Shown here piece after piece: positions 19,796-36,359 of a stretch of DNA of 64,000 nucleotides. The stretch comes from Segatella copri. Lineage in GTDB: Bacteria; Bacteroidota; Bacteroidia; Bacteroidales; Bacteroidaceae. Below the pieces are notes generated by a model. It saw nothing but the letters and a program-made list of their open reading frames with translations, ran no database searches and was not told the origin of the DNA. The DNA lies in assembly GCF_026015625.1 (NCBI RefSeq), contig NZ_JAPDVG010000001.1, forward strand, positions 806,001 to 870,000, written 5' to 3'. The translations under genes were made by a program, and so were the position numbers. The number at the start of each line of letters is the position of its first letter. Positions within the stretch are counted from its first letter, which is position 1.

Positions 19796-19838
19796 CAAAT
19801 CCCTTCACGGCATCCTGGTGGTGTTGTGGAGGGATTTG
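19796..19838 (+). terminator. Hairpin terminator after uxaC
   Basis: CAAATCCCTTCAC pairs with GTGGAGGGATTTG around a loop. The T tract is short (TGTTTTAT), so strength is uncertain. Confidence 0.65.
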
Positions 19839-19870
19839 ATGTTTTATCGTGAAACCAATACTTTAAGCTT

Positions 19871-21187: not shown

Positions 21188-21198
21188 TAATAAACGGT

Positions 21199-21232
21199 GT
21201 TTTTTAGGCACGTGTAATCCGTGCCTAAAAAA
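21199..21232. terminator. Bidirectional terminator
   Basis: TTTTTTAGGCACG pairs with CGTGCCTAAAAAA around TGTAATC. It lies between convergent genes (YihY on plus, phosphoribosyltransferase-like on minus). Confidence 0.9.
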
Positions 21233-21250
21233 CTATTAATTTATAGTATC

Positions 21251-21847: not shown

Positions 21848-21990
21848 AGACTAGAAATTTTTGATTATTAATAATGCATAGTTTCTGCAAAAATAGGAAA
21901 TCTTTTCGAATTAAGGTGCCGGTTTTATAAAAAAGATTTGTTTTTTAAGTAATATTTCACGTAGCTGCCCTTTTTTTACTTATTTTTTAG

Positions 21991-21998
21991 TACCTTTG
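21991..21998 (+). promoter_or_regulatory. Promoter of the YitT-family gene
   Basis: TACCTTTG about 31 bases before the ATG at 22029. It overlaps a possible TTG start at 21996, which therefore cannot be in the transcript. Confidence 0.7.
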
Positions 21999-22028
21999 CA
22001 CCGCATTTTAAGAAATACGTATATTTTT

Positions 22029-22928
22029 ATGACGAGAAAAACAAAACTTCATGAAATCCGCGACTACGTTATCATTGCCCTGGCGATGATAGAAGGTAGT
22101 ATCGGTTTGAACATCTTCCTGCTTCCCAATCATATCACGATGGGTGGTGTAGGAGGTATCGCTTCTATCCTTTACTGGGGATTTGGCATCCCGGCATCTG
22201 TATCTTATCTGGCGCTCAATGTGTTCCTGCTTCTCATCGCATTCCGCATTCTGGGCTATAAGTTCTGTCTGAAGACCATCTATGGTGTTGGTATCTTTGC
22301 CTTAACTACCCGTCTGATAGAGACGCATACGGTAGGCATGACGCCGCTGCTTCACGACCAGCCGTTCATGGCAACGGTCATCGGTGCGTTCTTCATGGGC
22401 AGCAGTGCCGGTCTGGGTCTTTCCTGCAATGGTTCTACGGGTGGTTCTGATACCGTAGCGGCGATGATCAACAAGTATTGGAACATTTCCCTGGGTCATG
22501 CCATCATGATTTGCGACCTGTGTATCATCACCAGTTCTTATCTGGTATTGCGTGATTGGGAGATGGTGATTTACGGTTATGTCTGCCTCTTTGTGCAGTC
22601 GCTCTGTGTAGATCATGTGGTGAATGCGTTGCGCCGTTCGGTTCAGTTCTTCATCATCAGCGACAAATATCTGGAGCTCAGTGCAGCCATCAATACCGCT
22701 GCCGACCGAGGTTGTACGGTGATGGATGGTCATGGCTGTTACAGTGGCAAGGATGTCCACATGCTGTTTGTATTGGCGCGTCAGCGTGAGTCTCAGAAGA
22801 TATTCCGTCTCATCGACGAGATAGATCCTACCGCCTTTGTCAGCCAGAGTGCCGTCATCGGTGTTTATGGCGAAGGTTTCGACCGTTTCAAGGTAGGCAA
22901 GAAGATAGGTTTGCCGAAGAAGAAATAG
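22029..22928 (+). CDS. YitT family membrane protein (DUF2179 C-terminus)
   Basis: About 299 residues from the ATG at 22029; the frame extends 33 bases further up, but those bases lie in the promoter. Five or six membrane helices follow, with the family motifs IEGSIGLNIFLLPNHITMGGVGGIASILYW and GAFFMGSSAGLGLSCNGSTGGSDTVAAMINK. The C-terminal cytoplasmic DUF2179 domain follows (FIISDKYLELSAAINTAADRGCTVMDGHGCYSGKDVHMLFVLARQRESQKIFRLI split over about 90 residues). The family's transport role is unproven. It ends in a strong terminator and marks the left edge of the accessory region. Confidence 0.9.
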   Translation: MTRKTKLHEIRDYVIIALAMIEGSIGLNIFLLPNHITMGGVGGIASILYWGFGIPASVSYLALNVFLLLIAFRILGYKFCLKTIYGVGIFALTTRLIETHTVGMTPLLHDQPFMATVIGAFFMGSSAGLGLSCNGSTGGSDTVAAMINKYWNISLGHAIMICDLCIITSSYLVLRDWEMVIYGYVCLFVQSLCVDHVVNALRRSVQFFIISDKYLELSAAINTAADRGCTVMDGHGCYSGKDVHMLFVLARQRESQKIFRLIDEIDPTAFVSQSAVIGVYGEGFDRFKVGKKIGLPKKK

Positions 22929-22936
22929 ATAAACAG

Positions 22937-22975
22937 AAAAAGGGTGTGTCATAACTGCATGACACACCCTTTTTT
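22937..22975. terminator. Strong bidirectional terminator
   Basis: AAAAAGGGTGTGTCAT pairs with ATGACACACCCTTTTTT around AACTGC. Confidence 0.92.
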
Positions 22976-23003
22976 AGTAATTTTCTATGGATAACACTTA
23001 TTA

Positions 23004-23032
23004 TTCTTCTGTCGTTGCGCATATTTGAGAGA
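23004..23032. repeat. 29-bp direct repeat, left copy
   Basis: Matches 25653-25681 at 28 of 29 positions in the same orientation (starts TTCTTCTGTCG, ends ATTTGAGAGA). The two copies bracket the first AAA-ATPase gene, the amidase and smalltalk. Confidence 0.8.
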
Positions 23033-23090
23033 TTATCTGAAAATAAAGACATTTTATTCCGCATTATTTTGCAGATACCAACTTTTTTCG

Positions 23091-23098
23091 TAACTTTG
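23091..23098 (+). promoter_or_regulatory. -7 promoter element for the first AAA-ATPase/nuclease gene
   Basis: TAACTTTG, 27 bases before the ATG at 23125. Confidence 0.55.
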
Positions 23099-23124
23099 CC
23101 AAAAATTCAATAAAAAGCAACAAT

Positions 23125-24753
23125 ATGAAATATCCTATAGGTATACAAAACTTTAGTGAAATTATAGATGGCGGTTATGTTTATCTCGACAAGACCAAGC
23201 TCCTCTATGATTTAGTGCATAATGGGAAAATATATTTTCTGAGTCGTCCAAGACGATTCGGAAAGTCGTTGTTGATTTCTACCCTGGAATGCTACTTCCA
23301 AGGAAAAAAAGAATTGTTTAAAGGACTTGCCATCGAACAGTTAGAAAAAGAATGGAAGCAATATCCTGTTTTTCATATAGATTTCAACGGCAAGAACTTC
23401 ACACAGGCAGGCGAATTGGAAAAAACCTTGCAGACTTTTGTTGAAACCCAAGAACTGAATTATGGCAGAAACCCATTGGCCAACACCTTGGGAGACAGAT
23501 TTATGGCTGTTTTGAAAGCTGCTCACGAAAAGACAGGACTTGGCGCCGTTGTCCTGATTGATGAATATGACAAACCTTTATTGGATGTTTTAGACACAGG
23601 GTTAAAGACCTTCGATTCTGAAGGCAACGAACGTTTGCTGGAAGACCGACATCGCGAGATTATGAAAGGTTTCTACAGTGTCTTCAAGGCTGCTGACAGA
23701 GATTTGAAATTCGTGCTGTTGACAGGTGTTACCAAGTTCTCGCAAGTAAGCGTATTCAGTGGTTTCAACCAACCAGATGACATCAGCATGGACGACCGCT
23801 ACGAGGCTCTTTGCGGCATCACGGAAGAGGAACTGTATTCTGTCTTTGATGAGCAAATCAAGGCAATGGCTGCAAGATATAAAGTGTCTGAGGATGAGAT
23901 GAAATATCGGCTCAAGCGCAAATATGACGGTTACCATTTCAGCCCAAGCATGCTCGACATCTACAATCCTTTCAGTATCTTGAACTCACTGAGCAAGAAA
24001 ATCCTGAGTGATTTCTGGTTCCGTACAGGTTCACCTACTTATCTGGTCCGCTTATTAGCTCACTTCGACGAAAACCTCAATGAACTGACAGGGAAATTTT
24101 ATCCTACCAGCAGTTTTATAGATTACAAGGCGGATACAGAGGCTCCATTGCCAATGATTTACCAGAGTGGTTATCTCACCATTAAGGATTGGAACATGGA
24201 TACCGATTCTTATCTCTTGGATTTTCCAAACGATGAAGTAAAAGCTGGTTTCGTAACCATGGTGGCTGCCAACTATCTGAAGCCCAAGGAATCGCCTGAC
24301 GCTTGGGTCGTAGAAGTCGTTAATACGATGAAGATGGGAGATTGTGACAAATTGGAGAAACTACTCACTTCCTTCTTCGCCAGTATACCCTATAGCCAAC
24401 GTCGTAAAGATGACGAGCGGGAAAAAGAGCGATACTTTCAATATACCTTCTATCTGGTGATTCGCATGATAAGCAGTTTTACCGTTCTAATAGAAAAGGA
24501 GCAAAGTGAAGGACGGGTTGATTGCATTATTGAGACCCCAATGTTTGTGTATATCTTCGAATTTAAGCGTGATGGGTCAGCGACTGAAGCCTTGAAACAA
24601 ATCGAGGAAAAAGGATATGCCCGTGAGTATGCTACAGACAACAGAACGATTTACCTGATAGGCTGCAACTTCTCGTCTAAGACGGGGACGATTGACGACT
24701 GGAAGTCTAAGGGCAAAAACTTGCGAAAGCTCAGTGATTTTTCAGATAAATAG
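23125..24753 (+). CDS. AAA-ATPase-like / PD-(D/E)XK nuclease-like protein (PF09820 + PF08011), paralog 1
   Basis: 542 residues. The N-terminus has the family opening YPIGIQNFSEIIDGGYVYLDKT, then Walker A-like [11 protein letters not shown] (Lys about 47) and Walker B-like VVLIDEYDKPLLD (about 142-154). A middle region includes LLTGVTKFSQVSVFSGFNQ and KRKYDGYHFSPSMLDIYNPFSILN. The C-terminal 120 residues resemble the PD-(D/E)XK fold: RVDCIIETPMFVYIFEFKRDGSATEALKQI, with Asp466 and the EFK triad. This large Bacteroidota family is strongly expanded in genomes and its function is unknown; defence, addiction or mobile-element roles are guesses. Two diverged paralogs lie at 36417 and 46330. It has its own promoter and terminator. 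Confidence 0.9.
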   Translation: MKYPIGIQNFSEIIDGGYVYLDKTKLLYDLVHNGKIYFLSRPRRFGKSLLISTLECYFQGKKELFKGLAIEQLEKEWKQYPVFHIDFNGKNFTQAGELEKTLQTFVETQELNYGRNPLANTLGDRFMAVLKAAHEKTGLGAVVLIDEYDKPLLDVLDTGLKTFDSEGNERLLEDRHREIMKGFYSVFKAADRDLKFVLLTGVTKFSQVSVFSGFNQPDDISMDDRYEALCGITEEELYSVFDEQIKAMAARYKVSEDEMKYRLKRKYDGYHFSPSMLDIYNPFSILNSLSKKILSDFWFRTGSPTYLVRLLAHFDENLNELTGKFYPTSSFIDYKADTEAPLPMIYQSGYLTIKDWNMDTDSYLLDFPNDEVKAGFVTMVAANYLKPKESPDAWVVEVVNTMKMGDCDKLEKLLTSFFASIPYSQRRKDDEREKERYFQYTFYLVIRMISSFTVLIEKEQSEGRVDCIIETPMFVYIFEFKRDGSATEALKQIEEKGYAREYATDNRTIYLIGCNFSSKTGTIDDWKSKGKNLRKLSDFSDK

Positions 24754-24775
24754 TCCATATAACGCCGATGAAACA

Positions 24776-24810
24776 GAAAAAGCCCCACAGGAATTACCTG
24801 TGGGGCTTGA
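24776..24810. terminator. Terminator between paralog 1 and the amidase
   Basis: AAAAAGCCCCACAGG pairs with CCTGTGGGGCTT around AATTA. It can serve both convergent genes. Confidence 0.85.
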
Positions 24811-24856
24811 ATTAACTTAAAAAAATAAATATGATGAACTCCTTTCCGAAATTCGG

Positions 24857-25294
24857 CTAGATGTGGAAATCTACCAACTTCAGCCATCGCTTGACATCAA
24901 ACGACGGACAGTCTTTGTGAACGTTCGGCAAATCGCGGTGGCCCAGTATCTCTGCATCTGGATAGGAGAGGCAGAGGCTCTCCAGAAGCGAATACAGAGC
25001 CTGATTCTGGGCTGGAGTACGCGTATCGGCAGGCTTGCCGTTCTTGTCGAGACCTCCCTCATAACAGATGCCGATGCTGTGGGCATTGTAATGACGGGCA
25101 TGGGCTCCTACCTCAGACTCCGGACGACCCGGATATACCACACCATCCTTCGTGATGTAATAATGATAGCCGATACTCTTGAAACCGCGGGCAAGATGGC
25201 AGGCCTCCAACTGCTCGAATGTGAAATCCTGAGTCACTCTCGTGGCAGAACAGTGGATCACGATGAGTGAAATGCTACGATGTTTCTGTGTCAT
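24857..25294 (-). CDS. N-acetylmuramoyl-L-alanine amidase (Amidase_2, T7-lysozyme-like)
   Basis: About 145 residues from the ATG at 25294, chosen because a good GGGAGG ribosome site lies just upstream and the frame upstream overlaps the smalltalk gene. Zinc-ligand and catalytic motifs of Amidase_2 are present: LIVIHCSATR (first His), YHYYITKDGVVYPGRPESEVGAHARHYNAHSIGICYEGG, and late GHRDLPNVHKDCPSFD (His and Cys ligands). It would cleave the bond between MurNAc and L-Ala in peptidoglycan. No signal peptide is seen, so export would need a holin-like or lysis route. It is the last gene of the HU-smalltalk-amidase group common in Bacteroidales and probably phage-derived. Confidence 0.93.
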   Translation of the reverse strand: MTQKHRSISLIVIHCSATRVTQDFTFEQLEACHLARGFKSIGYHYYITKDGVVYPGRPESEVGAHARHYNAHSIGICYEGGLDKNGKPADTRTPAQNQALYSLLESLCLSYPDAEILGHRDLPNVHKDCPSFDVKRWLKLVDFHI

Positions 25295-25310
25295 GGCAAC
25301 CTCCCTTCTT

Positions 25311-25400
25311 TTAGCAGTTCTGTACACAGAATGAGCTGGCTACAGCTGTTAATACCGTGATGAGGAAGTTGATGATGTTTTTCCAATTTACTTTTTTCAT
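25311..25400 (-). CDS. Smalltalk protein (29 aa)
   Basis: A 29-codon frame, MKKVNWKNIINFLITVLTA followed by a short tail ending QNC. A basic start, one hydrophobic stretch and a C-terminal Cys match the smalltalk family of tiny proteins found directly upstream of Amidase_2 genes in Bacteroidales. The position fits exactly: it ends 16 bases before the amidase start and lies downstream of the HU-like gene. Function is unknown. A holin-like or membrane-anchor role in releasing the signal-less amidase is a reasonable guess but unproven. Confidence 0.85.
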   Translation of the reverse strand: MKKVNWKNIINFLITVLTAVASSFCVQNC

Positions 25401-25686
25401 TTTGCTTTGTTTTTTAATGATTAATACTAAGTGGATAATGATAGTCACATGCTTGTTTTAGTGGTTGAAATTTAGTTTCAGTAAGCGTTTCTGGAAGAAG
25501 AAGGGCGGGGGAGGAACTGCCAGCCCGGATACCCGTAAAAGGCAGGTTCTTGGGTCATTATGATTTGCTGTTTATCCGTAATCGTCAGGATGAAAACCAG
25601 CCGCTTTGTGCCTTCGGAATATCCCTGTCGCCGGTCAGTTCACTCCTTCCTTCTTCTGTCGTTTCGCATATTTGAGAGACGGATCA
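25401..25686. other. 286-bp spacer between the HU-like and smalltalk genes
   Basis: Contains the right copy of the 29-bp direct repeat (25653-25681) and, on the minus strand, a 26-codon ATG frame at 25478-25558 (begins MTQEPAFYGYPGW). I cannot support it as a gene. No hairpin terminator is evident, so HU, smalltalk and amidase may be cotranscribed. Confidence 0.5.
25653..25681. repeat. 29-bp direct repeat, right copy
   Basis: 28 of 29 bases match 23004-23032. It lies just downstream of the HU-like gene's stop codon. Confidence 0.8.
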
Positions 25687-26241
25687 CTACTCCAGGCCGT
25701 CTCCGATGTCGCCTGTTCCGTCGGTGCTGCCGCCTTGTGATGTGCCGCCGCCTTGTGATGTACCGCCGCCCCCAGTGGTTCCGCCGCCCTGTGTGTTATC
25801 GCCAGTGGTGGTATCGCCTGCAGCGCTCTCGCTAGAGTTGAGGAGATCCATGGCGTTCTTGGCGTTGGCATCGAGAGAGAGCTGGGTGTTGCTGAGCTTG
25901 CCGGTAGCACGTGCTCTGAGGCGGTAGCCTTCTACAAACTTGGCGAGGCTCCACTCCTTGATGCTGGCGGCTCCCATCTTGTTGATGATGCCGATGGAGA
26001 AGATGGCAAGGTTGTCTATCTTCACTGCCTTGTTCTGGAGCACGAGCTCCTTCACACAGCTCACCATATCGGTGAGAAGGCCCTTGATGGCACCCTTCGA
26101 GAACGGGGTGTTGTGGCTCGCCATGTGTTCGGCGAGTTCATCGATACCGATGGTTTCTGTCACTACTGGTCGCGCATAATACTTGCCATACGCTTCCTTG
26201 ATTGTCTTGTTCTTGTTCTTCGCTAATTTGATGAGAATCAT
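25687..26241 (-). CDS. HU-like DNA-binding protein with Gly-rich tail
   Basis: 184 residues. Residues 1-125 match the Bacteroidota HU-like domain (HU/IHF fold): KEAYGKYYARPVVTETIGIDELAEHMA, KGAIKGLLTDMVSCVKELVLQNKAVKIDNLAIFSIG. The tail from about 140 is low complexity (Gly, Thr, Gln, Ser with repeated GGGTSQGGGTSQGGSTDG). The matching DNA is a short imperfect repeat that may vary in length. It probably binds DNA in an architectural role. It heads the HU-smalltalk-amidase group; in related genomes this group is next to DUF4248 and VapE, but here those lie 6 kb upstream on the same strand. A minus-strand TATCTTTG box lies at 26324-26331. Confidence 0.88.
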   Translation of the reverse strand: MILIKLAKNKNKTIKEAYGKYYARPVVTETIGIDELAEHMASHNTPFSKGAIKGLLTDMVSCVKELVLQNKAVKIDNLAIFSIGIINKMGAASIKEWSLAKFVEGYRLRARATGKLSNTQLSLDANAKNAMDLLNSSESAAGDTTTGDNTQGGGTTGGGGTSQGGGTSQGGSTDGTGDIGDGLE

Positions 26242-26323
26242 ACTTTTAAAAATTTAGTTTTAGTAAAAGCAGTCAGTGTCTCCGCCGAGACCGTTGCTGC
26301 ATCAACCTCTCTGATTGACGATA

Positions 26324-26331
26324 CAAAGATA
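26324..26331 (-). promoter_or_regulatory. Promoter of the HU-smalltalk-amidase unit
   Basis: The minus strand reads TATCTTTG about 85 bases before the HU start. Upstream lie paired TGCGATTT direct repeats inside a CCCGAA/TTCGGG inverted pair (26339-26384), a candidate regulator site. Confidence 0.55.
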
Positions 26332-26488
26332 CAACATTCCCGAACCCCCAACTATGCGATTTGTGCGATTTGCAGGGATTCGGGAAAAAAAGGTTGAAAA
26401 AAGTGGTATTTTTTATGTTAAAATCGAAAAAAGTCTTGGTTGTATCAGGTATTTAGCGTATTTTTGCCGTAATTAGACGATTCGCATT

Positions 26489-26818
26489 ATGGAAACAAGA
26501 AATAATATTAATCCGCGTCCTTTCCAGCCGGTTAGTCCTGGTTGTATTTTGAAGGAGGAATTGGAAGCTCGCAGCCTTCCAATTTCTGACTTTGCTCATA
26601 AAATAGGGCTTGAAGAGTTTGAATTAGATAAACTTTTGAATGGAACGTTATGTTTAAGTCCTGAGATAGCTTCTTCTTTAGAACGTTTTTTGGGCATTCC
26701 TGCTTCTTTTTGGCTTTCTTTGCAATCTGCTTATGAAGAAGATTTAGATAAGAGCGATAATAAAGGCATGGTTCGAACTTTTCTTGATAAGTTTACAAGA
26801 AATCGTGTAGCATTTTAA
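26489..26818 (+). CDS. HigA-family antitoxin-like HTH protein, orphan
   Basis: 109 residues with the HigA signature: PVSPGCILKEELEARSLPISDFAHKIGLEEFELDKLLNGTLCLSPEIASSLERFLGIPASFWLSLQSAYE across residues 14-85. The fold is an XRE-type helix-turn-helix. HigA normally neutralises the HigB RNase encoded just upstream. Here no HigB frame exists in the 247 bases before it, and the next gene downstream is unrelated, so it is an orphan; it could be a stand-alone repressor. A TATTTTTG box lies about 30 bases upstream. It is followed by the hairpin at 26837-26895 that is also the left insert boundary. Confidence 0.82.
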   Translation: METRNNINPRPFQPVSPGCILKEELEARSLPISDFAHKIGLEEFELDKLLNGTLCLSPEIASSLERFLGIPASFWLSLQSAYEEDLDKSDNKGMVRTFLDKFTRNRVAF

Positions 26819-26836
26819 ATCAAAGAATTCCTATAA

Positions 26837-26895
26837 TAAACTCACCCTGGAAGGGATATGCATAATGTGTTGTATGCATTCCCTTTCAGGGTGAT
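26837..26895. repeat. 59-bp direct repeat / terminator hairpin, left copy
   Basis: Matches 32268-32326 at 56 of 59 positions, same orientation. Each copy folds as CACCCTGGAAGGGA... with TCCCTTCCAGGGTG and is followed by a T run on the plus strand. This copy would end the HigA-like transcript. The two copies bracket a 5.4-kb insert. Confidence 0.88.
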
Positions 26896-26983
26896 GAGTT
26901 TTTATAGCACAAGACAAATACTTTATTGAAAGGCGGATTAGGAGAGATTCCGCTTCAATAAACAATATAGTCCTTGGATACTT

Positions 26984-27397
26984 TTACATTTTACTAATAT
27001 CATCATCAAGTTGTTTCCTCCAGATTAAAGTTCCGATACCTGAAAAGATGAACGTGAAAATTAAAGCAGCTTGGGCATAACCCACAGGTAAGTAATCTCC
27101 TTCAAAAAAAAGATAATCAGTTTTTGAAGAATAGTATAATTTAGGAAAATACCCTGACTTTATCTTGTCCAAAATTCGATCTCCCGTATGTAATGCATAT
27201 TGTTTTGATTTATAAGTTATAAGAATTGTATTTGAACTCTTATAGTTACTTTTTTCCTCAAATCCATTATATGTATAACCAGTAATAGGCTCCTGTGTTT
27301 TTTCTATATAGTTGCCGTATAAATGGCATAGATACAAAACAAGAGTTAAAACTAATCCTGCGCAAAAAATTGTCTTAAATAATGTTTTAATCTTCAT
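26984..27397 (-). CDS. Hypothetical protein with two membrane helices
   Basis: 137 residues. An N-terminal helix (TIFCAGLVLTLVLYLCHLYG) and a C-terminal helix (AQAALIFTFIFSGIGTLIW) flank an extracytoplasmic region of about 70 residues rich in Tyr and Lys (GYTYNGFEEKSNYKSSN, YALHTGDRI, GYFPKLYYSSKTDYLFFEG). No family was recognised; the layout resembles DUF3592-type membrane proteins, which is only a suggestion. AT-rich compared with the flanking VapE cassette. It lies inside the 5.4-kb insert. Confidence 0.65.
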   Translation of the reverse strand: MKIKTLFKTIFCAGLVLTLVLYLCHLYGNYIEKTQEPITGYTYNGFEEKSNYKSSNTILITYKSKQYALHTGDRILDKIKSGYFPKLYYSSKTDYLFFEGDYLPVGYAQAALIFTFIFSGIGTLIWRKQLDDDISKM

Positions 27398-27485
27398 ATT
27401 CTTATGATTTTATAATAGTGTTATAATGGATTGTGTAATTACGGACTTTGCATCATCAAAGGACATATCTCGTTGATCTACTAAA

Positions 27486-27559
27486 GTAAGTATTATCCTC
27501 TATTGATTCGTTCTACCAATTCGTCTGGTGTAAGTATCTCCATCTTAGAGAAAACAAAC
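27486..27559 (-). pseudogene. C-terminal remnant of a second ORF6N gene
   Basis: 71 of 74 bases match 28389-28462, the 3' end of the intact ORF6N gene. On the minus strand it reads FSKMEILTPDELVERINRG and stops. The rest of the gene is absent; upstream sequence is unrelated. It shows that this block once held another ORF6N copy or was duplicated and rearranged. Confidence 0.8.
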
Positions 27560-27652
27560 TCTTCATCATAAATAAATTGTTTGCATTAGCTTCGATAGCC
27601 CAATACCCATGATTCCACATTGCCTATAGTTGATACCGCCAGTTCGTCTCAT

Positions 27653-28342
27653 TCATTTCGAGATTGGATCTGTTTTGCCCATAATACTAAGAAAGTACTC
27701 TTCTCCTGAATAGCCATCAATTTCTTGGACAATTACATTGTCAACAATAATAGATTTGAGTTCCAGTTGGATCCTTCCTGGAGAGATAGGACGCTTGTCT
27801 GCATCAAAAACAAATTGCGAAGGACATTTAAAGTTGAAAAGCACAAGATGCTGCTTTCCGCCATAGTTCAGAGTCACAGGTACTTTGCTATCGCTATATA
27901 TGATTTTCCCCATTTTGCTCGCTTCTCCTGTTTCTTCGTCAGAGCTTGCAAAAGAATAAGGTATCGAAATATCATAATCTGGCAACAACTTGACTGCTTC
28001 TGCCAATTTAGTATCTTTTATAACAAAACTTATCCAGCTGATTGGGATTTGCTGTAAGGTGACAGTCCGGTTTTCGTACCCTCCAAAAGTGTAGTGGATG
28101 ATAGGTTGACCATTTTCTGTGACCTCACCCTTCCATAAACTTTTATAATCCAACTGTTCTTGCGATGCATTATAGATTACAGGAATGAATATACTGCTGT
28201 ATTGTCCTTTAAGCTCATTACTCAGCTCCTCAATTACACTTTGACGCTGGAAGTAAGAATCCACATAAGTAGGATCCTCATGGCATCCGCTTAAACTAAT
28301 CATGGCTGAAATCGCCACAATGACCATTGATATCTTTTTCAT
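27653..28342 (-). CDS. Hypothetical lipoprotein (DUF4840-like)
   Basis: 229 residues. A lipoprotein signal peptide (MKKISMVIVAISAMISLSGC, Cys at 20) indicates attachment to the envelope. The mature part is beta-rich, with segments such as KSLWKGEVTENGQPIIHYTFGGYENRTVTLQQIPISWI, YDISIPYSFAS and GRIQLELKSIIVDNVIV. I think it belongs to the DUF4840-type Bacteroidota lipoproteins, but I am not certain. Function unknown. It lies between the ORF6N gene and its remnant, separated from the ORF6N stop by about 50 bases. Confidence 0.65.
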   Translation of the reverse strand: MKKISMVIVAISAMISLSGCHEDPTYVDSYFQRQSVIEELSNELKGQYSSIFIPVIYNASQEQLDYKSLWKGEVTENGQPIIHYTFGGYENRTVTLQQIPISWISFVIKDTKLAEAVKLLPDYDISIPYSFASSDEETGEASKMGKIIYSDSKVPVTLNYGGKQHLVLFNFKCPSQFVFDADKRPISPGRIQLELKSIIVDNVIVQEIDGYSGEEYFLSIMGKTDPISK

Positions 28343-28395
28343 TACTTACTTTATATTTATGTATTAAGTTCTTTTTCTTGAAATTTTCGTAAGTA

Positions 28396-29352
28396 TTATC
28401 CTCTATTGATTCGTTCTACCAATTCATCTGGTGTAAGTATCTCCATCTTGGAGAAACCAAACCACTTTTTGCCTAAGTCCTTAATGGATGCACCTATGTG
28501 ATATACATCATCGTCTATACAAAGGAAGCGGTCATGTGATAAACGGAATGTTTCAACATCAATCGGTGCATATTGAGCATTATGACGGTCTATGTCGAGT
28601 TGGAACTGACGGCTTATCTGCTGAGTATAGATGATTGTAGACACGTTATTATCTCTTTTATCGAGCAATGTCAGTACAGTCTCGTCAACATAGTTGTCGA
28701 TAAGGACAATACGTTTCTTCGCACTCTTAATCAAGTCGGACACGAAAGTATAGGCATCATAAATTTGACCATTGTAGAACACACCTTGTTTCGGCTTTGC
28801 ATTGCCCTCGTCCAATCTGCGAAACACCTCGTCTATGCGCTTGTCTGTTTCTTGCTGATGTTGCTGCATTTCCAGTTGATGGTACTCCATTGTTGAAAGA
28901 CGTTGGAAAACTTCTGCATTTGTCACCATGAAACGTCTCATTGCAACAAATGCATCCATAATTCGTATGCTTACACGAATTGCGGTTTCACTTCTAAGAA
29001 CAGTGGAGAGCATAGCCACTCCTTGCTCCGTGAAAGCATATGAACGAACTGTTGAGTGCTTCAAACTATTGAACCGATCACAATTTGTGACCAGTTCATT
29101 CATTTCTTCCTTAGTCAGTTGAAAACGAAAACGTTCAGGAAATCTCTCCATATTACGTTTTACAGCTTGATTTAACACCCTGGTTTCCACTCCATAAAGT
29201 TCAGCCAAGTCTCTGTCTATCATAATCTGCTTTCCACGAATAGACATTATTCGACTTTCTACAGGAGTGGTAACTACGACTTCATCATTTTGTAACTGGT
29301 CGCAATTTGCGACCAGTTCTCCTTTATCTTGATGTTCTATATTATCTGCCAT
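28396..29352 (-). CDS. ORF6N-domain DNA-binding protein
   Basis: About 318 residues from the ATG at 29352 (MADNIEHQDKGE); a longer frame to 29421 would start at the promoter itself. The ORF6N domain spans about residues 35-135: SIRGKQIMIDRDLAELYGVETRVLNQAVKRNMERFPERFRFQLT and YAFTEQGVAMLSTVLRSE. A coiled segment follows (FQRLSTMEYHQLEMQQHQQETDKRIDEVFRRLDEG). The C-terminal part (RIVLIDNYVDETVLTLLDKR, SHDRFLCIDDDVYHIGASIKDLGKKWF) looks like a degenerate phospholipase-D-like half with a conserved HDRFL. ORF6N proteins are phage- and element-borne and role is unknown. Two DNA palindromes fall inside its N-terminal coding part and a third in its leader. Confidence 0.87.
   Translation of the reverse strand: MADNIEHQDKGELVANCDQLQNDEVVVTTPVESRIMSIRGKQIMIDRDLAELYGVETRVLNQAVKRNMERFPERFRFQLTKEEMNELVTNCDRFNSLKHSTVRSYAFTEQGVAMLSTVLRSETAIRVSIRIMDAFVAMRRFMVTNAEVFQRLSTMEYHQLEMQQHQQETDKRIDEVFRRLDEGNAKPKQGVFYNGQIYDAYTFVSDLIKSAKKRIVLIDNYVDETVLTLLDKRDNNVSTIIYTQQISRQFQLDIDRHNAQYAPIDVETFRLSHDRFLCIDDDVYHIGASIKDLGKKWFGFSKMEILTPDELVERINRG
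29071..29097. repeat. Imperfect odd-length palindrome inside the ORF6N gene
   Basis: Centre TCACAA-T-TTGTGA; outer arms extend to 11 of 13 matching pairs. It encodes the LVTNCDRF peptide. Confidence 0.75.
29294..29318. repeat. Perfect 25-bp palindrome inside the ORF6N gene
   Basis: 12-bp arms AACTGGTCGCAA / TTGCGACCAGTT around a single T. It encodes ELVANCDQL. Confidence 0.85.
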
Positions 29353-29370
29353 ATTTCTATCTTTATTTTT

Positions 29371-29391
29371 AAGGTCACAAATTGTGACCTT
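29371..29391. repeat. Perfect 21-bp palindrome in the ORF6N leader
   Basis: 10-bp arms AAGGTCACAA / TTGTGACCTT around a single A, between the promoter (29419-29426) and the ATG. Same core as the two palindromes inside the gene, so a candidate operator or RNA hairpin. Confidence 0.85.
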
Positions 29392-29418
29392 AAACCTGTT
29401 GTTGCTTATTATTGAATT

Positions 29419-29519
29419 CAAAGGTAGTGCTTTTAGCCTTTAAGCCACTATTGCACAACCCTTTCTTTGAAAAGAACGTAAAATCAATAGTATTATTGCG
29501 GTGATTGTACTTTTATTAA
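29419..29519 (-). promoter_or_regulatory. 101-bp shared upstream module, ORF6N copy
   Basis: 94 of 101 bases match 32170-32270, which stands at the same position before the YhcG remnant. The gene-proximal end carries TACCTTTG on the minus strand. The distal end stops at TTTTATTAA in both copies, after which the flanks are unrelated. Confidence 0.88.
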
Positions 29520-30016
29520 TCGCTTAACTCGTTGCACGGTAAGTCCAATCGCCAATACAACAGATATTTTACCGTTTATTTTACATATTCCGAATTATTC
29601 TTGCATAAACAACCAAAAATCACCTCTGCCGTGATACCGGATTGAAATAAAAACATTACCTTTGCACTGACAGAATCCGCCTGCTTCCCGTAAGATTTGT
29701 GGACTCAATGGGGCATTTTGTAAGTTGGATATACAACATAAATTATAACGACAGGAGAACAAATAGATACTCAAAAACTATTAATACTTCAATGAAAATA
29801 GAAATTGATTTTGATATGGGTTACGAGACGAATATTCCTTGGATTGAGGCAATCTGAGGCTTTGTTGCTAGGCAATTCAAAATGATTCGTTTAAAACGAT
29901 ACAAGTCAGTTTAAATTAATATAGGTGAATAAGATAAAAAATATCGTAAAAAATAACACAAAATAGCTATTGTTGGCAAAAAAATCACTAACTTTGAAAT
30001 AAAAATGTGTTAAGCA
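29520..30016. other. Intergenic region with a promoter and a short remnant frame
   Basis: A plus-strand TACCTTTG box lies at 29657-29664, followed about 130 bases later by a 21-codon frame (29792-29857, MKIEIDFDMGYETNIPWIEAI), probably the start of a lost gene. A second plus-strand box, TAACTTTG at 29989-29996, serves the clostripain-like gene. No other coding sequence is seen. Confidence 0.55.
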
Positions 30017-31204
30017 ATGAGCATAAGTAAAAATAAATTATTACATATAATATTCATATTTATCACGTTGGCCTCACTGACTATCGTGATTTCATGTTCG
30101 AGTGAAGAAGAAATTGTTGCTCCAAAGGAAGAAAATGAACAAACAGTCATAATGTTTTTCCCTTGGAGTTCAAATTTGTTACCTTATTTTCAACAAAACA
30201 TAAAAGATTTTTCTAAAAGTATAGAAGAAAGAGGCTCACAAAATGCACGAGTCATGGTCTGTTTAGCTACAACGCCAAATACTGCGGATCTCATGGAATT
30301 AAAGTATGATAATGGAAGTTGTATCGTTGAGAATATTAGAACTTATGACAATCAAAGATTTACTTCGCAAGAGGGTATTTCTAATATATTGAAGGCTATA
30401 AAAAAATATGCGCCTGGAAAGAAATATGGATTAATTATCGGCTGCCATGGAATGGGATGGTTGCCAGTAATTCATACAAAATCCAATGAAACTCAAGAGA
30501 TATTTCATTATAATGTAAATAATGGCCCAATGACAAGATATTTCGGTGGATTAACACAGGAATATCAAATAGAAACGTCTGTCTTGGCTCAAGCAATTTT
30601 AGAGTCCGGAATTACTATGGAATATATACTATTTGATGATTGCTATATGTCTTCAATCGAGGTTGCATATGATTTAAAAGATGTCACGAAATATTTAATA
30701 GCTAGTCCCACTGAAGTAATGGCATATGGATTCCCATATCATGAATGTGGGAAATATCTTATAGGAAATGTTGATTATGAGGGAGTTATACAAGCATTTT
30801 ATGAGTTTTATAGTCAATATACATATCCATATGGTACAGCAGCCGTTACGAATTGTCAAGAATTAGAACAATTGGCAAATATTGTGAAAAGAATTAATAT
30901 CGAAAATCCAAATAATAATATATCAGCAAATAGTATCCAGGTAATGGATGGATATACTCCGACTATTTTCTTTGATTTTGAAGACTATATTAATAAGATT
31001 TGTAATGATAGAGTGCTTCTTGATGAATTTTCAAATCAATTGAGGAAAACAATATTATTCAAATGTCATACTCCACAATACTATTCTGCTTTTAAAGGAA
31101 TATTGCCCATTAATCATTATTCTGGTATTACTACTTCTGATCCTAGTAGTAATAGACTTTCAAATCCAAAAATATATACACGATGGTATAATGCCACCCA
31201 TTAA
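30017..31204 (+). CDS. Clostripain-like (C11 family) cysteine peptidase lipoprotein
   Basis: 395 residues. Lipoprotein signal peptide with Cys near 27 (TIVISCSSEEE). The C11 catalytic pair is visible: His144 in YGLIIGCHGMGW and Cys209 in ILFDDCYMSSIEVAYDLKDVTKYLIAS, followed by the conserved MAYGFPYHECGKYL. C11 peptidases in Bacteroidota cleave after Arg or Lys and include toxin- and antigen-processing enzymes. The protein is anchored in the envelope, probably surface-exposed. A truncated MATE gene begins 6 bases after its stop, so they were once an operon. AT-rich compared with neighbours. Confidence 0.85.
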   Translation: MSISKNKLLHIIFIFITLASLTIVISCSSEEEIVAPKEENEQTVIMFFPWSSNLLPYFQQNIKDFSKSIEERGSQNARVMVCLATTPNTADLMELKYDNGSCIVENIRTYDNQRFTSQEGISNILKAIKKYAPGKKYGLIIGCHGMGWLPVIHTKSNETQEIFHYNVNNGPMTRYFGGLTQEYQIETSVLAQAILESGITMEYILFDDCYMSSIEVAYDLKDVTKYLIASPTEVMAYGFPYHECGKYLIGNVDYEGVIQAFYEFYSQYTYPYGTAAVTNCQELEQLANIVKRINIENPNNNISANSIQVMDGYTPTIFFDFEDYINKICNDRVLLDEFSNQLRKTILFKCHTPQYYSAFKGILPINHYSGITTSDPSSNRLSNPKIYTRWYNATH

Positions 31205-31209
31205 TTTGT

Positions 31210-31395
31210 ATGAATTGGGATTCGATAAAGTCTATATTAAAATTATCAAATCCTCTAATTATATCTCAATTAGGCTTGTTTTTTGTCCAACTGTCAGATA
31301 CTGTAATGGTTGGACAAATAGGTTCTCGTGACTTGGCTGCAATTTCTTTTGGTGGGAATGTTTATTTTTTTATTTATTTGGAATTGGCATCGTAA
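31210..31395 (+). pseudogene. 5' fragment of a MATE efflux transporter gene
   Basis: About 55 residues match the start of MATE transporters (SNPLIISQLGLFFVQLSDTVMVGQIGSRDLAAISFGGNVYFFI), then the frame ends. A +1 frame continues as FGIGI, the expected next MATE residues, before the sequence switches to an antisense RHS fragment at about 31395. The native protein is about 450 residues, so nearly all is lost by deletion plus a frameshift. Confidence 0.85.
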
Positions 31396-31559
31396 GTGTA
31401 GGCGTTATCCATGATGGTGTTTCCACCACTATTCACCGTGAGGTTCTGCAATCTGCGACGCTGTGGGTCGTAAGTGTAGAAGGTCTCAGCACCGTAGCAA
31501 TACTTCAAGTATGTGCGCTGCTCAAACTTGTCATAGCCTATCTTGCTCACATAGTCGTC
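31377..31559 (-). pseudogene. Fragment of an RHS/YD-repeat gene
   Basis: The minus strand encodes DDYVSKIGYDKFEQR, YCYGAETFYTYDPQRRRLQN and MDNAYTYDAN, typical RHS/YD repeats. Only about 60 residues remain, fused in frame to the YhcG fragment on one side and abutting the MATE fragment on the other. No toxin tip or further repeats are nearby. Confidence 0.8.
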
Positions 31560-32145
31560 ACGATACTGGTTACCCATAAAGATAAAATCCTTTCCGAATT
31601 GAAGAATGAAATCGCGCATGTTTCTTACAATTTCCTGCTCAACTACACGTTCGTCAATGTCCTCAATCTCCAGTCCCAAATTTTCAGTATTGATGAAATC
31701 AAGCAAATATTCATCCTTAAACATTGATATTGTTTTCATTGATTGCTTAATGTCTGGTATCGCTTTCGGAAAATTGTTAGGCATATTTTTCTCCTATTTC
31801 AATACCTTCTTCTATCTTATTTTCAAGCTGTTGTAATTGGTTCGCCAATGGCGAACCAATTGAAAGGCATTGCCATTCCTCATAGAAGATACGCATTTTC
31901 TTCAAGTTGCCTGAAGAAAAGCCTCTTAATCCTGGCAATTCACGCTGCAATCTCTCACTAATAGTATCAAGAGCTTTTGCGCCCCAATGTGCTTGCTGTA
32001 AATTGATAGACACATAACGCCCTATACCATAATATAAAGACAACTGTATGGCATTACTTGACTGGCTCGCCTGTGCTTGAGCTCGCAAAATTGCCCCTTT
32101 TATGGTTTGGACAGCTTTATCTACTGTTATATTGTTTTCTTCCAT
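31560..32145 (-). pseudogene. Broken YhcG/DUF1016 family nuclease gene
   Basis: The first 122 codons (32145 to 31777) encode the DUF1016 N-terminal domain (SNAIQLSLYYGIGRYVSINLQQAHWGAKALDTISERLQRELPGLRGFSSGNLKKMRIFYEEW). The frame then ends and a second frame, overlapping by 8 bases, carries the start of the PD-(D/E)XK-like half (MFKDEYLLDFIN, RDFILQFGKDFIFMGNQYR). The central part and most of the nuclease domain are missing; the reading frame runs into an RHS fragment. Native YhcG proteins are about 350 residues. It keeps its promoter in the 101-bp shared module (32170-32270) and a perfect 27-bp palindrome (31835-31861). Confidence 0.82.
31835..31861. repeat. Perfect 27-bp palindrome inside the YhcG remnant
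   Basis: 13-bp arms AATTGGTTCGCCA / TGGCGAACCAATT around one A. It encodes the GSPLANQL peptide. Same odd-length design as the palindromes in the ORF6N gene but with a different core. Confidence 0.85.
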
Positions 32146-32169
32146 TATACTCTGTTTTGATATTATTTA

Positions 32170-32270
32170 CAAAGGTAGTGCTTTTAGCCTTTAAGTCACT
32201 ATTGCACAATCCTTTTTTTGAAAAGAACGTAAAATTAATAGTTTTATTGCTGTGATTGTAGTTTTATTAA
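32170..32270 (-). promoter_or_regulatory. 101-bp shared upstream module, YhcG copy
   Basis: Second copy of the block at 29419-29519 (94 of 101 identical), with the minus-strand TACCTTTG box at 32170-32177. Its far end runs directly into the right copy of the 59-bp hairpin repeat. Confidence 0.88.
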
Positions 32271-32326
32271 ACTCACCCTGGAAGGGATATGCATTGTGTG
32301 TTGTATGCATTCCCTTCCAGGGTGAT
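32268..32326. repeat. 59-bp direct repeat / terminator hairpin, right copy
   Basis: 56 of 59 bases match 26837-26895. It lies 3 bases from the DUF4248 stop codon and marks the right edge of the insert. Confidence 0.88.
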
Positions 32327-32329
32327 TTT

Positions 32330-32542
32330 TTATGGTTCATCCAGAAATTCGATGATTTCTGCTACTTGTTGCCGGGTGTAGAAGTGGGAAAACTTGCCGG
32401 CGTAGCCCGAACAGAGGCTCTGCTTGAGCTCGGGACACCGGTTGATCCATCTCACCAACCGGTTGAGCGCTACCCTGGGGGTAGCGGTGGGAAAGTAGAG
32501 CATGGCGAGCTCTGCCTTCCCGTAACTTCTGTCTTCTATCAT
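32330..32542 (-). CDS. DUF4248 family protein (70 aa)
   Basis: 70 residues, YGKAELAMLYFPTATPRVALNRLVRWINRCPELKQSLCSGYAGKFSHFYTRQQVAEIIEFLDEP. This matches the small DUF4248 family, which looks like a helix-turn-helix adaptor, and in Bacteroidales lies directly downstream of BT4734-type VapE genes. Spacing to VapE is 144 bases, occupied by the four-unit 21-bp repeat. It is probably in the VapE transcript. Its usual neighbour, the HU-like gene, is displaced by the 5.4-kb insert. Confidence 0.8.
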   Translation of the reverse strand: MIEDRSYGKAELAMLYFPTATPRVALNRLVRWINRCPELKQSLCSGYAGKFSHFYTRQQVAEIIEFLDEP

Positions 32543-32606
32543 AATTTGTTCTTTTTAGTCTGTTTTTGTCAGTTGCTTCTTTCTTCTGCCTGGTAGAATA
32601 AAATCT

Positions 32607-32680
32607 CTCCGAATCATAAGAAAATCCCTCCGAAAGATACGGAAATATCTCCGAAAGATAAAAAAATATCTCCGAAGCAG
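32607..32680. repeat. 21-bp tandem repeat, four units (iteron-like)
   Basis: CTCCGAA recurs at 32607, 32628, 32649 and 32670, an exact 21-base period. The two central units share CTCCGAAAGATA followed by A-rich sequence. It is non-coding, between DUF4248 and VapE. Confidence 0.85.
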
Positions 32681-32686
32681 AATTTC

Positions 32687-35002
32687 CTAAAATGGGAGAT
32701 CCCCGGGCGGAATATTCTCGCTGCCATCCATCTTCTGGTTGTTCTCTATCTCGTCAGGACGCATCTCTATCACCTTCCAGCCGTTGCCCGTCTTGCGGTG
32801 AATCTTCTTGAATCCCAGCGCCTCCATGAACATCGAAATATCCTTGTTCGACATCGACTGGCGAAAGGCGGGGTTCGTGCAGATGCGCTCCATCACATCA
32901 CTCGCCGTAACAAACTTGCAGAACTCGGACGGCGTATCGGCATCAGGAACACGGTAGAACTTGTTGATGCGCTCGGCTATATAGTTGTTTACACGGAAAT
33001 AAAGATTGTGGTGCTGAATCTCCTCGTTCTCCTCCTTCGTAAACCAGTAAACCCAGTCGCAGGGCTCACCCCTCCGGCGCTTCTCTATCACCTCCTGAGC
33101 CAGTGCCACAGCCTGGGAATAGATGCCCTCGTAATTGAAGGGGAAGTCGATGGGACTCTTGATCTTCTCGATGCGCCAGATGAGGAAACGGCGGTTCTCG
33201 TCATCATCGATGATATGAATCTCATTGCTCGTGGCACAGAACCCCGCATTGTTCTGCAAGATGCAGTCCCACTCGGCATAAGGGATTCGCATGCTGATGT
33301 TGCGCTTCGTGATGTTGCTCTTGAAGGAATCCAGGTTCTTGCCGCGCAGACAGCTGAACTCATCGAGACACACTATCGCCTTGCTGGCACACATCTGCAG
33401 GAAATCCTTGTTCTTGTAGTCGCCCGTAGAATCGTTGGCGAAATACTTGCGCAGATGGGGCGGCAGAAGATGGTCGAAAAACGTGGTCTTGAAGATGCCG
33501 CCCTTGCCTACGAAAACCATGATAGACTGGTTGGTGACATCGGGCCGAACCCAGCAAACCACCATGTTGACCAGCCATTTCCTGAAGGCATAGGCAAAAT
33601 CCTCCTCCGTATGGCGGTAACCGCCTGTCTGCATCACGGTTACCCGATGGGCTAATTCAGCGATATAGTCAGTCTTTCGGTCCCATTTCGGCAGACTCTT
33701 CAGATATTCCTCCATGGGGTTGAATTCGGGGCTGAAGTTACTTCTGATTACCGTATCCAGCTTTTTCTGGGTGGTGCAGATGTTATCCAGTTCCATCTTC
33801 ACGAACAGGGAATTGCTCACCCGGGTATCCACTTCGGTCCAGTCGAGATAGAGTTTCTCTCCGGTGTTGATGGCGCGCACTTCATACTGGTTGCTCAGCG
33901 TGTTGTGGTGCATTTCATATCGGGCTCCCAGCCATCCCAGCAGTGCTCTCATGCTGGTATAACGTTTCTGCTCATCATCTCCCTGCTGTCTTATCTTCCA
34001 GGTTCCCAGCCGCTCGGTATGCTTGTAAATCTCTCGTGCCACCCGTTCGGTATCGGCATATTCGCCGCCAAACTTATCTGCCATGTGTTTCACAGCCTCC
34101 TCCTTTTCGGCTCCGAAACAGAGGCAGAATGTGGCGTATCTCACTACGTAGCTGTTGTGATGATGCTCCTCAAACCGCTCCTCCCAGCTTTCTTCCAGTT
34201 TGTCTACATACTGCAGAATCTCTTCGGTAGTGAGCGTTTTGGGTGGTGCCTCGTCTTCCTGTTTTCGAGGGCTTTTCTTTCTGGGTTTTTCAGCCTCCGT
34301 CTGCCTTTTCCTGTTCTGTTCCTCCTGTTGCTTTGTAGCTTTTTCGAAGTTCTCCACCTCCTCCCGGGTGATGGGGAGAACTTCGGCATTCCAGTTGAAG
34401 TAAGCCTCGGGGTCGTAAGCCAGTCCGCAGCTTCTCACCATGTCCTGGCATTGTTTGTCGCTGCTGATACCCAGCAGTTTGTCGTACATGCTCATGGCTT
34501 TCCTGATGGCGACCTGGTGGAGTTCGGTGGCAGTGAGATTGCATCCTTCAGGCCGCATATATCTGAGCAGGATGCGGAATCCCTTGCCCGAGACGGTGAT
34601 GTAGAAGATCATGGTGAAGGGGATTTTCCGGGCTTTCTGCCTGAGTGCCTCGATGTTTTTGGGGGGCACGTCGTCATAATCGAGCATCAGCCAATAGGTT
34701 TCCTTCCTGAAGTCAGTCAGCTTCTTGGAGCTTCCCTTGAGCTGCACGCTGGGAGTGATGCAGGGCAGCCTGTGCTTGATGTCCTCTGCCGTTCTCTTGT
34801 CCACCTTCGTCATCGACCTGTAGCCTTCGGTATTGGTTTTCACCGGTGCTGAATGCATGATGTTGTACTCCAGCACCTCTCTGTTGGGGAGAGGCTTGCT
34901 GGTAGAGGTCTTCAGAGTCTGGAAAAAAGAGGGCAAGACCTCTTTCTCCTGTTCTGTTTCCGGGTTATTCCCGGTCTCGTTTGTGGGTTTGTTTTCTTTC
35001 AT
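32687..35002 (-). CDS. BT4734-like / VapE family primase-helicase-like protein
   Basis: 771 residues. The N-terminal region (about 60-210) is the BT4734/BF3469-type domain (YRSMTKVDKRTAEDIKHRLPCITPSV, YWLMLDYDDVPP, FYITVSGKGFRILLRY), related to archaeo-eukaryotic primases. A Lys/Glu/Arg-rich linker (about 225-255) follows. The C-terminal VapE domain has the P-loop GKGGIFKTT (Phe504 before Lys505 where a Gly is usual), Walker B IVCLDEFSC, and later NNAGFCATSNEIHIIDDDENRRFLIWRI. VapE proteins are superfamily 3-type helicases of phages and satellites. Start overlaps the upstream gene stop as ATGA, so the two are coupled. Candidate replication initiator of a former mobile element. Confidence 0.9.
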   Translation of the reverse strand: MKENKPTNETGNNPETEQEKEVLPSFFQTLKTSTSKPLPNREVLEYNIMHSAPVKTNTEGYRSMTKVDKRTAEDIKHRLPCITPSVQLKGSSKKLTDFRKETYWLMLDYDDVPPKNIEALRQKARKIPFTMIFYITVSGKGFRILLRYMRPEGCNLTATELHQVAIRKAMSMYDKLLGISSDKQCQDMVRSCGLAYDPEAYFNWNAEVLPITREEVENFEKATKQQEEQNRKRQTEAEKPRKKSPRKQEDEAPPKTLTTEEILQYVDKLEESWEERFEEHHHNSYVVRYATFCLCFGAEKEEAVKHMADKFGGEYADTERVAREIYKHTERLGTWKIRQQGDDEQKRYTSMRALLGWLGARYEMHHNTLSNQYEVRAINTGEKLYLDWTEVDTRVSNSLFVKMELDNICTTQKKLDTVIRSNFSPEFNPMEEYLKSLPKWDRKTDYIAELAHRVTVMQTGGYRHTEEDFAYAFRKWLVNMVVCWVRPDVTNQSIMVFVGKGGIFKTTFFDHLLPPHLRKYFANDSTGDYKNKDFLQMCASKAIVCLDEFSCLRGKNLDSFKSNITKRNISMRIPYAEWDCILQNNAGFCATSNEIHIIDDDENRRFLIWRIEKIKSPIDFPFNYEGIYSQAVALAQEVIEKRRRGEPCDWVYWFTKEENEEIQHHNLYFRVNNYIAERINKFYRVPDADTPSEFCKFVTASDVMERICTNPAFRQSMSNKDISMFMEALGFKKIHRKTGNGWKVIEMRPDEIENNQKMDGSENIPPGDLPF

Positions 35003-35472
35003 TTCTTTTGGGGTTTTATGAGTTTGAATTTTTGGTTTAATTCCGCCTTTTTCATCGCAACAGAATTGTAGGATAGGATATTTTTCCAGTTGCTCAAACT
35101 ATTGCTGAGGTCGTCCCAGTATACCGAACCTTTGTGCAGTATCCATTTGCTCACTTCATCGCAGTAATACCAGAATCTGGTTTTTCCGTGGATGTTTCCT
35201 TCATATTCCCAGGTCGTACCATTGCAGGCATCCTCCAGATCCATTTTTATGAGAATGGATATAATGGCTTTATCCATTGCGTAGAGGATTTCAGGAGTGA
35301 TTATCTTTTTTTTTATCTTTTCCGATATTGTGTCGCGTCCACCCATTACTATTCTGATGTCTGTGACATTTACGTCACATACTTTGGCGATAGCCAGTTT
35401 TATGCTGGCTTCTTCTTCCATTTCTGCTGAAAATTTCAGCACTTCTTGTTTTGTTACGTTATTATTTTCCAT
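34999..35472 (-). CDS. Hypothetical protein coupled to VapE
   Basis: 157 residues. Mixed alpha/beta with an acidic N-terminus (EVLKFSAEMEEEASIKLAIAKVCDVNVTDIRIVMGG). A central part predicts helices (TPEILYAMDKAIISILIKMDLEDACNG), and a C-terminal Trp/Tyr-rich segment (TRFWYYCDEVSKWILHKGSVYWDDL) precedes a basic tail. No family recognised. The stop TGA overlaps the VapE ATG (ATGA), strong evidence for one operon and stoichiometric translation. It may be a partner or regulator of the VapE-like protein. It is the promoter-proximal gene next to the 887-bp repeat region. Confidence 0.75.
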   Translation of the reverse strand: MENNNVTKQEVLKFSAEMEEEASIKLAIAKVCDVNVTDIRIVMGGRDTISEKIKKKIITPEILYAMDKAIISILIKMDLEDACNGTTWEYEGNIHGKTRFWYYCDEVSKWILHKGSVYWDDLSNSLSNWKNILSYNSVAMKKAELNQKFKLIKPQKK

Positions 35473-36359
35473 GCTGCGAAGTTACACAAAAAGCTGCACA
35501 TTGGAAGTGAAGGCTATAGCCCTCACTTTTTACAAAGAATAACCTAGGTTAAACTTTTTAACGCGGCATTTCTGCGCCCATTTTTGTTGGGGTATTTTGA
35601 AGAAGAAGTAGTGAAGAAGCGAAACATCGGAAAAGTGACGAGGTGAAGGGTGAAGGGTATATTTTAAATCTTATATTATATTCTTTTTTTTAGGATTTTT
35701 GGAAAAACCGGATAGTCAGAAAAATGAAAAAACGGATTTTTTCCCTTGCCGCGCGTATATATAAAAAAGAGTTTTCAAACCTTCACCCTTCACCTTTTTA
35801 TTTAAGGTTTTGTGTGTCAAATAGTTACGGGTGAAGGGTGGTGAAGGGTGTTTTTCGCTTTTTATAAACATATTTTAAGAATTCAGCCCGTTTTTACATA
35901 TTTTAAGCGTTTATTTTTGGTTCCGAAAGGGGTGCCATTTTTTAGAGGTCCATTTTTTTCTCTTTTCTTACCGCTGAAATCTTTGAAAAAGCGAGTGGGG
36001 TAGTGAATCCCGTCTTATGTTGTGTTAAACAATTATCAGATAAAAGAAGTTAACGATACCGAAAAAGGACTGGTTTTTAAACAAATATTAACGCAGAAAA
36101 CTTGAAGTTTTGCATATTAGATTCTGGTTTCGCAAGTTCAGAAGTTAACGAATTTTAAGGAGTTATTCAAGTTTCGCCAGTGTGGGAATTTATTGAAGTT
36201 AAAGAAGTTATCACTCCCTACGGTCGTTCGGGAAGTTAAGAGACAATAGTCTTCTAGCTTAAAATGCAGGACATTTGTCCCTTAACTTCCCTCTAACTTC
36301 CATCTAACTTCCCCCCATGCGAAAGTTCAGTAAGAAAGTGCAAAAAAGATGAGAAAAGT
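35473..36359. other. 887-bp non-coding repeat-rich region (candidate origin or control region)
   Basis: No plausible gene on either strand. GTGAAGGGT-type repeats occur at 35642-35658 and 35829-35850, with an inverted block CCTTCACCCTTCACC at 35780-35794. The heptamer GAAGTTA occurs at 36046, 36141, 36195, 36204 and 36232. Its complement TAACTTC occurs at 36283, 36294 and 36305 with an exact 11-base period. A 15-bp motif ATGCGAAAGTTCAGT at 36317-36331 recurs at 45895-45909. The region lies between the divergent VapE operon and AAA-ATPase paralog 2 and contains AT-rich tracts. Confidence 0.7.
36283..36315. repeat. Three-unit 11-bp tandem repeat
   Basis: TAACTTCCCTC, TAACTTCCATC and TAACTTCCCCC in tandem, followed at once by ATGCGAAAGTTCAGT. 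Confidence 0.85.

Follow-up and report, generated by a model that had tools for sequence, protein, structure and literature searches.

The DNA analysed here, a stretch of 64,000 nucleotides from Segatella copri (NCBI RefSeq assembly GCF_026015625.1, contig NZ_JAPDVG010000001.1, forward-strand positions 806,001 to 870,000; the window), contains a Bacteroidales gene cassette for VapE, DUF4248, HU and amidase proteins that is interrupted between the HU and DUF4248 genes. Our comparison with related genomes makes it likely that the interrupting DNA is a strain-variable mosaic islet of about 5.9 kb, built by recombination over short repeats, and that a duplicated hairpin in it is an internal feature. 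The evidence comes from one empty site and the edges defined by it, from the separate relatives of the insert pieces, from broken genes and from the rarity of the hairpin. A real empty site implies that accessory DNA comes and goes in a conserved, unexplained Bacteroidales gene set.

Open reading frames (ORFs) and Pfam matches confirmed that the four cassette genes are collinear on the minus strand in the order given by an earlier sequence-only reading. With the cassette defined from that reading and from general knowledge, these genes place the locus in the Bacteroidales VapE-DUF4248-HU-amidase group, on which a search of a literature collection returned almost nothing. The short hydrophobic ORF next to the amidase gene is presumably the one named smalltalk. 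The gap between the HU and DUF4248 genes measures 6088 bp, in line with the 6 kb reported before, and the intervening block is AT-rich as described, with a GC content of 0.32-0.40 against 0.50-0.52 in HU and VapE. The N-terminal part of VapE bears a weak resemblance to a primase-polymerase (NF040562; its score of 62.5 bits is far under the cut-off of 200).

The nearest genome compared, G001, also has this cassette, in which DUF4248 and HU are only 172 bp apart; the genus was taken as Segatella and each species in the comparison set was represented by one genome. G001 joins window position ~26414 directly to ~32326. Its identity to the window amounts to 96.1% over 24852-26414 and 98.3% over 32326-32556, to 98.3%, 98.2% and 98.7% across three stretches of 9543-22993, and to 90.6% over 32616-36333 in the VapE part. 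The block is a real insert, absent from the otherwise collinear G001 cassette, and in this respect the sequence-only reading was right. It had further supposed one original hairpin, placed between the HigA-like gene and DUF4248; the empty site of G001 has neither this gene nor any hairpin copy. With the edges set by G001, the HigA-like gene and both hairpins fall inside the insert.

The G001 junction reads GTGGTATTTTTTTATGGTTCATC, and the window reads GTGGTATTTTTTATG, followed by the insert and ATTTTTTATGGTTCATC. Relative to G001, both insert edges carry the 10-bp direct repeat ATTTTTTATG, present in two copies in the window and in one copy with one extra T in G001. An edge repeat with a single copy in the empty site is expected of an integrating element and fits a deletion via short repeats just as well. 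In 5 of 5000 random draws, two windows of the same size from the region shared any 10-mer, a length that was picked after the fact. The usual size of the gap was estimated from 46 DUF4248 genes, 18 of which, the window included, had an HU gene on the same strand of the fetched stretch. Fifteen of the other 17 DUF4248-HU gaps measured 80-832 bp, which makes the compact form the norm; the remaining two measured 1142 bp and 8303 bp (L077). The 18 gaps are not independent, since the window is counted along with L030x, the corresponding empty cassette of G001, and since L078 and L082 are near-orthologous.

These data bear on the direction of the change. G001 might be the derived allele, having lost the islet by deletion between the two copies of ATTTTTTATG, and its sequence is nearly what such a deletion would leave. 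We regard this as the less likely direction, as G001 has one T more than either copy and a compact gap is usual among the examined cassettes; even if it were true, the islet would still be an earlier insertion. Several points nevertheless weigh against the interpretation as a mosaic islet. A single empty allele is known, and G001 could have lost the islet via the 10-bp repeat. That the ends of two unrelated genes both carry a 62-bp hairpin is not due to chance, and the islet account offers no specific cause for their duplication. Moreover, the joints in the window were read from assembled sequence.

The individual pieces of the insert have relatives in different places. Positions 26892-27559 are 97% identical to G118:C24, while 27560-27641 and 27642-27780 sit 1.9 kb apart in G219. 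The ORF6N gene and its leader have 94.5% identical DNA in an S. hominis plasmid, beside a recombinase gene and with a clostripain-related gene nearby, and ORF6N DNA was also found in several genomes. The RHS-core scrap (31387-31558) matches two places in G134 at 81%, one of them within an ORF of 2726 aa with RHS repeats. The two blocks matching YhcG lie 212 bp apart in G311 as parts of one 383-aa ORF, showing that the YhcG gene of the window is broken. No ORF of at least 60 aa exists between the left insert edge and the HigA-like gene. No integrase or transposase, as expected of an autonomous integrating element, was recognized by Pfam in eight insert ORFs; only a recombinase-tail remnant is present. 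A PADLOC search assigned ORF6N to the candidate model PDC-S05 and the HigA-like gene to RmrA at an E-value of 0.0023 only, and gave no match for the clostripain (C11) gene.

We propose that the islet pieces were drawn from a pool of scraps present elsewhere in the genus, comprising ORF6N and YhcG genes behind a shared leader, RHS-core pieces and lipoprotein genes. The islet was probably assembled in more than one step, in an order that can only be suggested, through ordinary recombination over the 10-bp edge repeat, the 62-bp hairpin and the 110-bp leader and without an integrase of its own. At present the islet probably has little function, with ORF6N and the HigA-like gene perhaps being expressed cargo and the remaining islet genes decaying.

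The two hairpins form a direct repeat with 58 of 62 positions identical, corresponding to 56 of 59 in the frame of the sequence-only reading. On each strand, both copies folded better than 200 of 200 shuffled sequences (z -7.6 to -11.7). Among 248 Segatella genomes the hairpin was found in one, S. copri Indica, in one copy that sits between a DUF4248 tail of ~60 bp and the leader, the same leader that adjoins hairpin 2 in the window. The recurrence of this joint demonstrates that it is not peculiar to the window. A single paired change (G-C to A-T) separates the Indica hairpin from hairpin 2, and hairpin 1 has an intermediate state; to judge from these sequences, the stem may be under selection. 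Against such selection, the Indica hairpin also has a change opening one pair of the upper stem. In G118, the sequence abutting hairpin 1 is present without the hairpin. The hairpins lie inside the patchwork and not at the entry edges. They would belong to the DUF4248 end and to the leader, possibly acting as terminators.

The sequence-only reading had let the hairpin repeats bound the block and had proposed a terminator hairpin as attachment or target site. The repeat pair itself stands, and its role as the insert edge is lost to the 10-bp repeat defined by G001. An element using the hairpin for attachment should have left an empty site with one hairpin, and the sole empty allele found, that of G001, has none. 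Together with the rarity of the hairpin and the content of the insert, this leaves the attachment site, a tempting lead, without support, and it was dropped.

A two-step history would retain a part for the hairpin in the insertion. The HigA-like gene and one hairpin would have entered first at the T-tract, and the block 26896-32264 would have entered later at the hairpin, doubling it by homologous or site-specific integration of a circle. This agrees with near-identical hairpins flanking the block in direct orientation, with the sharp junction relative to G118 at the right edge of hairpin 1 and with an outer 10-bp repeat suiting the first insertion. We nevertheless consider it unlikely, as no intermediate with one hairpin was found among the genomes compared (one per species), the hairpin was seen in that single Segatella genome and, searched as one exact pattern, in no viral contig, and no recombinase was recognized in the block apart from the tail remnant. 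Very improbable is an assembly artefact, in which the hairpin or leader repeats led to a false join of contigs. Both repeats are short enough to mislead a short-read assembly, but the joint of DUF4248, hairpin and leader was found independently in S. copri Indica, and at the left edge no repeat of such length separates the clean G001 flank from the HigA-like gene.

The mosaic islet shares traits with three known systems. Orphan Rhs arrays consist of displaced C-terminal tips of Rhs proteins with immunity genes. Similar to these, the window has an RHS-core scrap in frame with the 5′ part of another gene, a repeated leader and lipoprotein neighbours, and its leader is found again in S. copri Indica (L001), at the head of a series of units. 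In contrast, the scrap is decayed, runs into the MATE scrap and is only 172 bp long, and no toxin tip was recognized, so that the insert was not classified as such an array. Anti-phage cargo islets are known from hotspots of mobile or satellite elements. ORF6N, a defence candidate, and the broken YhcG gene inside a VapE-bearing cassette are reminiscent of them, as is a second G001 cassette with other cargo in the same gap. Unlike in such islets, several genes of the insert are broken, the gap counts gave no recurrence beyond chance and the defence role is that of a candidate only. IS200/IS605 elements and integron attC arrays, compared by their generally known features, resemble the window in that imperfect hairpins, each with one extrahelical base, occur as direct repeats close to both ends of the cargo. 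They differ in that neither a Y1 transposase nor an integron integrase was found among the insert ORFs scanned, that the searched genomes do not contain the hairpin in multiple copies and that the outer edges of the insert lie elsewhere.

Related units were seen in other genomes. In S. copri Indica (L001 1820-14500, L051 1-4350), the leader is matched eight times in a row over ~18 kb, once only in part. Two of these leaders head ORFs that begin with an ORF6N 5′ end and continue, in the same frame, as an RHS-like tail, called by resemblance to L175 and not by Pfam, and lipoprotein-like genes lie between the units. A fusion of an RHS-like piece with an ORF6N 3′ end occurs in G118 (L163).

Table 1. 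Cassette, insert and repeat features, with positions in the window.
Feature	Position	Strand	Basis or remark
N-acetylmuramoyl-L-alanine amidase gene	24857..25327	-	Pfam Amidase_2; final cassette gene
Short hydrophobic ORF, smalltalk position	25311..25400	-	part of ORF 25311-25448
HU-HIG DNA-binding protein gene	25687..26241	-	Pfam HU-HIG
Left ATTTTTTATG copy, left insert edge	26408..26417		comparison with G001
HigA-like antitoxin gene in insert	26489..26818	+	HTH_3 below cut-off; TIGR02607 46.7 bits, cut-off 47.7
Hairpin copy 1	26834..26895		repeat search, folding
Small ORF without Pfam match	26984..27397	-	lies in the block 97% identical to G118:C24
Stray second copy of ORF6N 3′ end	27486..27559	-	96% to 28389-28462 (74 bp)
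Lipoprotein-like gene	27653..28342	-	Pfam DUF4840
Full-length ORF6N-domain gene	28396..29421	-	Pfam ORF6N; PADLOC candidate
Leader copy 1, before ORF6N	29410..29519	-	repeat search
Remnant of serine-recombinase gene 3′ end, precedes leader 1	29493..29541	-	intact gene in L164 (G118), Pfam Resolvase
Clostripain-family gene	30017..31204	+	Pfam Peptidase_C11
MATE transporter N-terminal scrap	31210..31386	+	Pfam
RHS-core scrap, in frame with YhcG piece	31387..31558	-	sequence matches
Broken YhcG/DUF1016 gene	31559..32145	-	Pfam YhcG_C and DUF1016_N pieces in ORF 31374-32145
Leader copy 2, before YhcG piece	32161..32270	-	110 bp, 90% to leader 1
Hairpin copy 2	32265..32326		repeat search, folding; abuts leader 2 and DUF4248 3′ end
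Right ATTTTTTATG copy, right insert edge	32325..32334		comparison with G001; overlaps DUF4248 stop codon
DUF4248 gene	32330..32542	-	Pfam DUF4248
21-bp iteron-like direct repeats between VapE and DUF4248	32597..32680	-	repeat search
VapE-like gene with BT4734-like N-terminal domain	32687..35002	-	Pfam

The second G001 cassette, L077, carries in its DUF4248-HU gap an unrelated 8.3-kb block (4915-13217 of G001:C1:680000-696000) with a full YhcG gene, a DDE transposase gene, an Abi_2/AbiD-like gene and an AAA_14/DUF4143 gene. Where scanned, these genes matched PADLOC models: PDC-S02 for YhcG, AbiD, and PDC-S01 for AAA_14/DUF4143. Since the window block contains ORF6N (PDC-S05) and a broken YhcG gene recognized by Pfam, the HU-DUF4248 gap could be a recurrent landing site for cargo of the anti-phage type. 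The presence of cargo in the same gap of both cassettes is suggestive, not significant: gaps of more than 2 kb were counted in 2 of 18 DUF4248-HU, 1 of 16 VapE-DUF4248 and 1 of 15 HU-amidase intervals, which is no clear excess. In addition, the PDC labels denote candidates only, and the transposase gene could by itself account for the L077 block. A landing site is therefore among the less probable explanations. The long HU-amidase gap, of 3.1 kb, belongs to L105 (G095:C123).

The iteron-like repeats upstream of DUF4248 are not restricted to the window. Repeats with a period of 21-22 bp were detected in 8 of 13 tested VapE-DUF4248 gaps (out of 16; the 8 include the related pairs window/G001 and L078/L082), two more gaps had periods of 16 and 14, and in three the repeats were weak or absent. 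Outside this test, the best periods upstream of DUF4248 were 15, 10 and 9 in L089, L095 and L106, and hence not 21-22. The 21-22-bp repeats of the window, L077, L078, L082, L083, L087 and L088 share their architecture, with largely unrelated sequences between cassettes. Around 30 representative Segatella DUF4248 genes, tandem repeats at p < 0.01 in comparison with Markov shuffles occurred in 17 upstream flanks, in 20 downstream flanks and at 24 genes in either flank. The corresponding numbers for 100 control ORFs were 15, 11 and 26, which indicates that the shuffle test is lax and that the excess at DUF4248 is still clear. A first pass with a score of at least 14 had given 18 of 44 upstream and 27 of 44 downstream DUF4248 flanks versus 10 of 119 controls. 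No excess was observed at 15 DUF4248 loci of other genera (3 and 4 of 18 rows).

A replicon-like role of the cassette is a guess based on these repeats and on the primase-like part of VapE. That it is a replicon-like module with family-specific 21-22-bp iterons, whose HU-DUF4248 gap is at the same time a recurrent landing site for defence cargo, appears improbable; if this were true, anti-phage genes would be acquired by such cassettes and traded between them. Two questions arise from the iteron-like repeats and from the cargo in the second G001 cassette: whether DUF4248, HU or VapE bind the repeats and whether defence cargo prefers the HU-DUF4248 gap.

Other repeats and differences were noted near the cassette. 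Several DUF4248-HU gaps contain repeats of ~10 bp, and long 24-bp repeat arrays, whose units have inverted halves (AACTGA...TCAGTT), lie just downstream of DUF4248 in L103, L104, L089 and L106. In place of window positions 22994-24851 (~1.86 kb with an AAA-ATPase_like/PDDEXK_9 gene), G001 has ~20 bp, and related DNA is present at many other places of this genome. Near window position 36.3 kb, G001 contains ~2.6 kb of its own sequence. Finally, short dispersed repeats at 36164-36333 and 45853-45909 of the window recur elsewhere in the G001 stretch, including the interval between its DUF4248 and VapE genes.

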